DNA of 56,508 nucleotides, from the NCBI GenBank assembly GCA_028284765.1, contig JANQRA010000009.1, forward strand, positions 1-56,508, written 5' to 3'. Each line of letters starts with the position of its first letter. Within the stretch, counting starts at the first letter, position 1. This DNA is from Acidimicrobiia bacterium (GTDB taxonomy: Bacteria > Actinomycetota > Acidimicrobiia > Spongiisociales > ZC4RG35). Positions 23,539 through 27,251 of the stretch are shown here, piece by piece. A model generated the notes under the pieces. It did no database searches. It saw nothing but the letters and a program-made list of their open reading frames with translations, and was not told the origin of the DNA. Position numbers and translations under genes: made by a program.

Positions 23539-23642
23539 GGTTGTTGACCTCCTCGATTTTTGGGACCAGGTGTGGTGATCTTACCGGGCTGGACGGCGTT
23601 GCGTCCGGGCGCACACCTCGTCGGATATGCCAGGATGAACGG

Positions 23643-24380
23643 ATGACGAAGGCTGCCTACCTCAGGGTCTATTCACCTGAAGTTGCCGCCTCCGACGCGC
23701 CCGTCCCCGGCTTCGTCAGGACATACGGTTTGTTATCGGAGGAGGCCGGGCAGGCCGGCTGGTCAGTGGAATGGGATGGCCGACGACTCACATGCCCCCG
23801 GAATCTCCGTCTCAGAGTCCTAGAGTCGACGGTCGCGTTCGCCAATACCTACCGAGGGATGGGAGCGGGTCTGATCCCCGAGGGGTCTGCTGAAGCGGCC
23901 GACGCTGAGCTCAAGGCCTATCGCCGTGCCAATCCTGAACACCGCTCCCACGTGTTGGTGTCCGCGTGGCACGTGCCTGTGCGCTGGTTTGTCGGATTCG
24001 ACCCGTCGGACAAAGAGGTCTACGACGGGCCGAACGGGCCCCGCCTCCGATATCGGGCCGACATCGAGCCAGCAAGACGTCGGATCGCCAATGCGCATCG
24101 AGTTCTGGTGAATCTTGGGGTGTTCGCGGGGCCTGCTGAGGAGCTTTCGCATCTGGTGGATTGGCTGCAACCGTTCTCGGCTGATTCGATGCTCGAGCTC
24201 GACTACGCGTCCGTCTCGGAGCTGTTCGATCCCCAAGAGCTCGTCTTTGACGATTCCTGCGAACAGATACAGGAGTCGGTCCGCTCGTTGGAGGCCGGAG
24301 ACATGCTCGCTGCCGGAGAGTGTTACGGACGGGTTGTCACCCGTTGGGCCCCCGCCTTCTCGGTCACCTTCAGCAACTGA
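23643..24380 (+). CDS. Conserved-looking protein of unknown function, 245 aa
   Basis: The ATG at 23643 gives a soluble 245-aa protein with no signal peptide or membrane segment. Recognisable local stretches are RVLESTVAFANTYRGMGAGLIP, HVLVSAWHVPVRWFVGFDPSDKE and RRRIANAHRVLVNLGVF, with strong codon bias and no in-frame stop, so it is a real gene. No enzyme motif is evident. It is divergent from the Leu dehydrogenase gene across a 104-bp gap and is followed by an inverted repeat 8 nt after the stop. Confidence 0.7.
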   Translation: MTKAAYLRVYSPEVAASDAPVPGFVRTYGLLSEEAGQAGWSVEWDGRRLTCPRNLRLRVLESTVAFANTYRGMGAGLIPEGSAEAADAELKAYRRANPEHRSHVLVSAWHVPVRWFVGFDPSDKEVYDGPNGPRLRYRADIEPARRRIANAHRVLVNLGVFAGPAEELSHLVDWLQPFSADSMLELDYASVSELFDPQELVFDDSCEQIQESVRSLEAGDMLAAGECYGRVVTRWAPAFSVTFSN

Positions 24381-25443: not shown

Positions 25444-25992
25444 ATGCCATGGATTGAAGCCCCGCATGAAGACGACTGGGAGGGGGATCTCGCCGACATC
25501 AAGCCTCAGGTGATCGACCCCGCACACGATCGAGTGGACTGGATCATGAGAGTGCATGCTCTCGACGCTGGAAGCATGGATGCGCACAACGTGCTCTACC
25601 GGCAGGCGATGAAGTCGACCAAGACCCTGAGGAAGGTCGATCGAGAGATGATTGCGGTCGTCGTCTCCCAGGCGAACGACTGTCATTACTGAGTGACCCA
25701 TCACCGGCGCGGTCTGCGCCGACTGCTCAGGGACGACACGCTCGTCGAAGCCATCGAGGACGATTTCGAATCGGCCGCCATTTCGACCAAGCGGAAGGCC
25801 ATGTTGCGTTTCGCGCTGAAACTCACTGCCAACCCGGGCGGGATGGTGGAGGCAGATGTCGATGGTCTCAGGGACGAGGGTTTCAGTGACACCGACGTCC
25901 TCCACATCGTGGAAGCCACCGCCTACTACGCATATGCCAATCGCATCGCCGACGGTCTCGGGATTCCTCTCGAGGAGTGGATCCAGGATTGA
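25444..25992 (+). CDS. Selenocysteine-containing AhpD-like peroxidase-related protein
   Basis: The reading frame 25444-25992 is open for 182 codons apart from one in-frame TGA at 25690-25692 (codon 83). The TGA occupies the second position of the AhpD redox motif: DCHY-TGA-VTHH, where homologues of the peroxidase-related / carboxymuconolactone decarboxylase-like family have CxxC followed by V-x-H-H. Translation on both sides of the TGA is family-typical (REMIAVVVSQANDCHY before, LRFALKLTANPGG and VEATAYYAYANRIADGLGIP after). Directly 3' lies a SECIS hairpin with a GGTCT apical loop 18 nt from the TGA, the same distance and loop as in E. coli fdhF. So TGA should be read as selenocysteine, giving a CxxU active site for hydroperoxide reduction. 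A broken gene is much less likely. SelA/SelB/SelC are not in the window. Confidence 0.93.
25693..25721 (+). promoter_or_regulatory. Bacterial SECIS element
   Basis: Immediately after the TGA, a 6-bp perfect GC stem (CGGCGC 25705-25710, GCGCCG 25716-25721) carries the 5-nt loop GGTCT (25711-25715). The loop begins 18 nt after the TGA. SelB recognises GGU in such loops; the fdhF SECIS of E. coli has the same GGUCU and spacing. Confidence 0.92.
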
Positions 25993-27251
25993 CCTTCCGT
26001 TACTTCGCATACGGATCGAACATGTGGGGCCCTCAAATGAGGAGCCGCTGCCCGTCTGCGAAGTTGGTGGGCAAAGCAACGATCTCGGGATGGAGGGCCG
26101 CCTACGACAAGCCATCCGTTGACGGTTCGGCGAAGCTGAATATCCGCCCAGTCGCAGAGGGTTCTGTTGGGGGAGTCCTTTGGGATATCGACGACGAGGA
26201 GCGTGAACTACTCGACCTGGCAGAGCCGTTGTATGACCCTGTCGACACCGAGGTTGGCCTCACCTACTCCTACGCGGGTGCACCAGCTGATGTCGGTCCC
26301 TATGACTGGTACGTGTCGATGGTGGAGCGAGCCGCCGAACAACATGGGCTGCCGGTGCCGTCGGCTTGTACCCTGCCGGATCCCCTGGCGCAAGGTGTCA
26401 GACCGGCGGATGAAAGCGACTTGCCGCTACTTCAGGACATCCTTTCGGAGGGTCTGGCCGCCGGAGGAAGCCGCTACTACTCGCATCCGGGTGAGCTGGG
26501 GTGGTGGATGTATCACGCAGACGACCGGCACCCGTTTCTCTGGTGGGTTCAAGGCGAAGATGCCTTTTCGATCGTCGATCGCTCTCGTGACCGGGAGATC
26601 TTCGTCTTCGGTCGTCCCGGCAAACCGTTGATGCCTCTGGTCGAGTGGTCACAACGCCTGCTTGGAGGTCGCGGGGAGGTTGCATGGGTATCTGAGCAAG
26701 ATCCGGAGTTGGAGTCAGATCTCCGCAAGCGAGATCTCGAGCCAGTGTTCTCTTGGATTGCCTACGAGTGGGACTTGGATCGTCACCCGACACCCGAGCC
26801 AAGACTCCCCGAAGGTTGGTCAATCCGAGCGGTGAACGGTGAACATGAGGCGGACGAACGGCGACGGGCATCACATGCCGCGTTCGAGTCCTCGATGGAT
26901 CCGCAAACGCACCTCGAGCGATATCTGAGGTTCATGAGGTCACCGGTCTACATGGCCGAGCGAGATCTCGTCGTAGTCAGGGAAGACGGTCGCATCGGAG
27001 CGTTTGTGGTGTGGTGGGCAGACTCCAGCGGCATCGCTCAAATCGAACCATTCGGAACGCATCCCGAGTTCCAGCGCATGGGTCTGGGTCGAGCCCTGTT
27101 GCATCATGCTCTCAATGACATGAAGGCCGCCGGAATGAGCATGGCTCGGGTGACTACCGACGAGCCACGGGCGGCGAACGCCTTCTACTCCTCGGTTGGT
27201 TTCGAGAATGTGGGTCGTCTCCGAAACTGGGCCTTACCCTCGGCGCCATGA
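25977..27251 (+). CDS. Gamma-glutamylcyclotransferase-like (AIG2/GGCT) domain fused to a GNAT acetyltransferase
   Basis: The first about 115 residues show the GGCT fold signature YFAYGSNM (substrate-binding loop) and the VGGVLWDIDDEE and LYDPVDTEV segments; an acidic residue in the EERELLDLAE region could be the catalytic Glu. Residues about 140-424 carry two GNAT-like stretches, the C-terminal one complete (EFQRMGLGRALLHHALNDM acetyl-CoA loop; RAANAFYSSVGFENVG). The start at GTG 25977 or TTG 25989 overlaps the end of the selenoprotein gene, and the end overlaps the next SDR gene, so this is a coupled operon. The fusion suggests a two-step modification of a gamma-glutamyl or peptide amine, but this is inference. 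Confidence 0.85.
   Translation: MDPGLTFRYFAYGSNMWGPQMRSRCPSAKLVGKATISGWRAAYDKPSVDGSAKLNIRPVAEGSVGGVLWDIDDEERELLDLAEPLYDPVDTEVGLTYSYAGAPADVGPYDWYVSMVERAAEQHGLPVPSACTLPDPLAQGVRPADESDLPLLQDILSEGLAAGGSRYYSHPGELGWWMYHADDRHPFLWWVQGEDAFSIVDRSRDREIFVFGRPGKPLMPLVEWSQRLLGGRGEVAWVSEQDPELESDLRKRDLEPVFSWIAYEWDLDRHPTPEPRLPEGWSIRAVNGEHEADERRRASHAAFESSMDPQTHLERYLRFMRSPVYMAERDLVVVREDGRIGAFVVWWADSSGIAQIEPFGTHPEFQRMGLGRALLHHALNDMKAAGMSMARVTTDEPRAANAFYSSVGFENVGRLRNWALPSAP

Follow-up and report, generated by a model that had tools for sequence, protein, structure and literature searches.

An AhpD-like gene of an Acidimicrobiia bacterium with a conserved in-frame UGA and an fdhF-like SECIS hairpin: a probable selenoprotein of the CxxU type

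The window, the whole 56,508-nucleotide stretch of DNA analysed here, carries on its plus strand (positions 25444–25992, stop codon included) a gene that very probably encodes an AhpD-like (TIGR01926, peroxidase-related) selenoprotein, in which an in-frame UGA would be read as selenocysteine (Sec) through SelB and an adjacent RNA hairpin to give a CxxU enzyme of the AhpD fold. Comparative sequence evidence supports the coding unit, the conservation of the UGA and of the RNA element, the presence of the Sec machinery and the predicted fold; from these, insertion of selenium at codon 83 is the probable outcome.

The reading frame and its family

The frame runs from an ATG at 25444 to a terminal TGA at 25990–25992, and its sole interruption is the TGA at 25690–25692. 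The joined frame comprises 182 codons, counting the UGA, and reads ...SQANDCHYUVTHHRRGLRRLL... around it. A preliminary description, made from the letters of the DNA, had placed this TGA in the motif DCHY-TGA-VTHH of a frame otherwise open for 182 codons, and had expected a gene finder to split the gene; re-reading bears out the former, and a mechanical list of open reading frames indeed gives two products of 82 and 99 amino acids. Automatic annotation would thus cut this selenoprotein gene in two, and relatives across one order confirm that it is a single gene.

The joined protein scores 137.5 bits against TIGR01926 (cut-off 81.8), with residues 2–175 of 182 aligned to positions 1–174 of the 178 in the model, and 45 bits against PF02627 (Pfam CMD; cut-off 23). 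It falls below the thresholds of TIGR00777, AhpD sensu stricto (19.5 against 191.95 bits), and of NF041238, the AhpD-related (seleno)protein CFYUT (43.9 against 175 bits), whose members share the AhpD-type core with CxxU but are longer. AlphaFold models the joined chain as all-helical, with confidence along its whole length (mean pLDDT 94.5) and Foldseek TM-scores of 0.75–0.88 to 2prr, 6k40, 2pfx and 3c1l. These peroxidase-related proteins are its top fold matches, and the debrominase Bmp8 is also among the fold matches.

By sequence, the closest PDB entries are two peroxidase-related proteins, 3c1l (Mesorhizobium mlr4105) and 2pfx; their residue aligned with the UGA (codon 83, second position of CxxU, here CHYU) is the second Cys of CxxC, as the preliminary description had proposed for the family. 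Together with 2prr, 2oyo and 6k40 (the Deinococcus radiodurans AhpD-like protein), they have the same fold and a similar length, but Cys and no UGA where the window protein has Sec. Cys also occupies this position in CxxC relatives. The AhpD of Mycobacterium tuberculosis (1knc, 1gu9) likewise has a CxxC-type site whose Glu and His are spaced as in the window protein (PMC3141380), but it is only 9–10% identical, has a TM-score of about 0.5 and belongs to a family model whose cut-off lies far above the score of the window protein.

AhpD-like proteins had been put forward in the preliminary description as reported selenoprotein candidates, and a 2026 review in fact lists “AhpD-like protein, TIGR01926, CxxU” as a selenoprotein (PMC13188914). 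AhpD-like CxxU selenoproteins first came to light in 2005, in data from the Sargasso Sea (27 sequences; PMC1088965), and the GOS data contain 299 AhpD-like selenoprotein sequences; this set, “AhpD-like 1” of COG2128, is possibly the same family as the window gene (PMC2398784). Judged by sequence, the window gene is a member of the already catalogued CxxU family. It has every defining feature that could be tested, including the family model, CxxU with Sec second and a bacterial SECIS behind the UGA, and we found no defining difference. Our literature search returned no report of this gene in its lineage. What is new lies in the detail: near-fixation of Sec in the subfamily across one order, a loop whose sequence and distance from the UGA resemble those of fdhF, and a second Sec paralogue encoded by the genome.

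Conservation of the UGA, the hairpin and the Sec machinery

A homologue search of 198 related genomes yielded about sixty genes, 51–71% identical and nearly all with exactly one TGA. Read individually, codon 83 is TGA in all 59 sequences of the subfamily, the window gene included. One further relative outside the 59 (L045, genome G121) has TTA (Leu) at codon 83; L053 and L077 carry UGA, so that L045 is the only true Leu form. This sequence (L045:218-763, minus strand) retains an intact SECIS hairpin, and neither SelA nor SelB was found in its 79%-complete genome; it represents either a recent loss of Sec or an assembly error. Among named genomes, a scan found a single close relative, L085, in the metagenome-assembled genome “Actinobacteria bacterium PMV_6.36”, and two distant ones. 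Mean protein identity between the window protein and its homologues is 58% before the UGA and 62% after it, with no loss of conservation behind the TGA, and third codon positions take most of the changes on both sides.

The UGA is followed by a hairpin of the bacterial SECIS (bSECIS) type at 25705–25721 on the plus strand, with a 6-bp stem (CGGCGC, 25705–25710, pairing with GCGCCG, 25716–25721) and the apical loop GGTCT (25711–25715). The stem and loop agree with the preliminary description, which, however, counted the 18 nt from the TGA to the hairpin: this is the distance to the loop, and the stem begins at 12 nt. The likeness it drew to Escherichia coli fdhF holds, as fdhF has a TGA followed at 18 nt by GGTCT (checked against E. 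coli genomes, where the query sequence matched 5368 of 5426). The stem sequence differs from that of fdhF, and the window stem is an unbroken 6 bp.

Among 39 distinct sequences, 97.4% of stem cells are paired and three of the six stem pairs show double-sided changes, most commonly G-C to C-G at the third pair. Covariation scores 0.245, where shuffles average 0.073 and none of 500 reaches the observed value, and the signal is destroyed by sliding the partner strand. Synonymous constraint peaks at codons 88–92, with homozygosity of 0.51–0.93 against an expected 0.27–0.35. The GG of the loop is invariant and T occupies loop position 3 in 57 of 59 sequences; 57 of 59 spell the loop Gly as GGT, even though these genes most often use GGC for glycine. 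Single-sequence folding indicates a stability that is not unusual for the composition (z = 0.29), so it is covariation and codon constraint, rather than stability, that argue for the structure. Published bSECIS rules call for a loop of 3–9 nt with G in its first two positions, a stem of 4–16 bp, a loop 16–37 nt after the UGA and a minimum free energy of -7.5 kcal/mol or lower (PMC13188914); the window hairpin has a 5-nt loop opening with GG, 6 bp, a distance of 18 nt and -14.4 kcal/mol (UGA plus 44 nt). Searching the stretch with Rfam produced a single chance match and no SECIS family, and a genome-wide pattern for this SECIS type recovered the window site only, revealing no further selenoproteins.

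A selenoprotein here would demand SelA, SelB, SelC and SelD in the host, as the preliminary description pointed out, naming absence of selB or selC as grounds for rejection. The genome, 2.9 Mb in size and 98% complete, encodes all four. SelA (354 bits) and SelB (61 bits for the wing) lie close together on one contig, tRNA-Sec (selC) scores 74.7 bits with anticodon TCA, and SelD (384 bits; L013:1489-2511) has its own in-frame UGA in HGAGUACKLG. SelB was detected in all 39 TGA-form genomes with a completeness of 90% or more, against a background of 101 of 127 genomes (hypergeometric value 4e-5, which ignores relatedness and is a guide only). Six less complete TGA-form genomes (56–86%) lacked a detectable SelB; SelA, in whole or in part, is present in three of them.

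These data bear on three other readings of the UGA. Two separate genes of 82 and 99 amino acids, the second starting by termination-reinitiation at the GTG that directly follows the window TGA, would agree with the gene-finder list, in which both frames appear. We consider this highly improbable: ATG, GTG or TTG follows the UGA in only 26 of the 59 homologues, the others having GTC, ACG, ATC, CTG, AGG, TCG and further codons; TIGR01926 spans the junction; and in the confidently modelled joined chain a split would be predicted to break helix 81–95, which bears the active site. A decayed or misread Cys codon (TGC or TGT to TGA) would take a single-base change in any one genome, and the preliminary description had allowed for resequencing to reveal one. 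The occurrence of this TGA in independent genomes rules out sequencing error, and the relatives also refute a pseudogene, with the same TGA in 59 divergent genes from dozens of genomes and coding-type constraint in both halves; there is hardly any room left for this explanation. General reassignment of TGA in the lineage, for example to Trp, would account for UGA interrupting the frame in both the AhpD-like gene and SelD. It is the least credible of the three and is refuted by the terminal TGA of the window gene and of 40 of the 59 homologues at about the same place, by Cys rather than Trp in homologues and by the full Sec machinery.

Selenocysteine among AhpD-like groups

A tree of 89 proteins places the 59 rows of the window subfamily in one well-supported group with no Cys form, and a second subfamily is likewise Sec. 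A small third AhpD-like group mixes Sec (L104, L105) and Cys (L095), possibly reflecting recent Sec/Cys exchange. Together with the two Sec subfamilies, this mixed group places Sec in at least three AhpD-like groups of the class, though the tree involves long branches that bear on any number of Sec gains. The near-fixation of Sec in the window subfamily contrasts with the Sargasso Sea survey, where most selenoproteins were sporadic beside widespread Cys forms.

The second Sec AhpD-like gene of the same genome (G000:C5:81328-81726, minus strand; L001/L075) also has its UGA in CHYU and is 41% identical to the window gene. Its hairpin (GATCTC-CGGGCT-GAGATC) places the loop 24 nt after the UGA, with compensating changes in relatives (GACCTC/GAGGTC).

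Predicted active site, reductant and function

Predicted proton-relay residues E68, C80, Y82, U83 and H87 fall in codons 68–87 (25645–25704, plus strand) with the spacing of AhpD; E68, C80, Y82 and H87 are invariant in the alignment. Matching spacing is found in PA0269 of Pseudomonas aeruginosa (Glu36/Cys48/Tyr50/Cys51/His55) and M. tuberculosis AhpD (Glu118/Cys130/His132/Cys133/His137) (PMC3141380). The E68/C80/U83/H87 pattern appears consistent with an AhpD-type peroxidase, and the likeliest function is that of a Sec-dependent thiol peroxidase or a redox adaptor of the AhpD fold.

We propose that SelB with Sec-tRNA-Sec would bind the GGUCU hairpin just behind codon 83, allowing the UGA to be decoded as Sec. 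The product would be a 182-residue, all-helical AhpD-fold protein with the active site C80-x-x-U83. By analogy with AhpD, the U83 selenolate, activated by E68 and H87, is probably the peroxide-reactive group and would attack hydroperoxides, with C80 the likely resolving residue, forming a selenenylsulphide with oxidised U83. A dithiol protein, plausibly a lipoyl domain or thioredoxin, would return the enzyme to its reduced state; lipoyl-dependent reduction is known for M. tuberculosis AhpD (PMC8945050).

The Sec protein might instead not be mainly a peroxidase but, for example, a dithiol-type adaptor through which a lipoyl domain would supply a peroxiredoxin with electrons, or a redox enzyme with another substrate, which we regard as a serious but less than even prospect. 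M. tuberculosis AhpD doubles as an adaptor to AhpC (PMC3141380), and the presence of Bmp8 among the fold matches points the same way. Tyr82 replaces His132 of M. tuberculosis AhpD, a substitution that may weaken direct peroxidase activity, as has been argued for PA0269 (PMC3141380). On the other side stands the Cys-form DR_1765 of D. radiodurans, whose loss raises sensitivity to H2O2 and whose two CxxC cysteines matter (PMC8945050), which suits a peroxidase or peroxide-defence role.

The adaptor reading also draws on the Sec paralogue, which immediately follows the lipoyl-domain E2 gene of an E1-E1-E2 cluster. The arrangement recurs in G011 and G017 and is absent from G034 and G181. This position fits lipoyl-dependent reduction of the kind known for M. 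tuberculosis AhpD, suggestively only, and the link concerns the paralogue, not the window gene, and only close relatives. It makes the reductant of AhpD-like selenoenzymes a testable question.

Close to the window gene itself, the opposite strand carries genes for a fused E1 and a Glu/Leu/Phe/Val-type dehydrogenase, an order common to the same-family genomes G013, G011 and G017. Since it is limited to these three and was not found in 12 other genomes examined, gene order gives little on function. A tentative and rather doubtful extension is that the lineage runs a selenium-dependent, lipoyl-coupled peroxide defence, in which two Sec AhpD-like enzymes would draw electrons from 2-oxoacid dehydrogenase complexes, one encoded right behind its E2 gene and the other, the window enzyme, in the neighbourhood of the fused E1 and the dehydrogenase.

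Two further genes lie near the window gene on the plus strand. Positions 23541–24380, in the interval that separates the AhpD-like gene from that of the Glu/Leu/Phe/Val-type dehydrogenase, encode a 279-amino-acid protein that has no Pfam or NCBIfam match and is 64–69% identical in same-family genomes. Overlapping the end of the AhpD-like gene, positions 25977–27251 encode a gamma-glutamylcyclotransferase-like (AIG2) domain fused to a GNAT domain, which is also found nearby in three same-family genomes.
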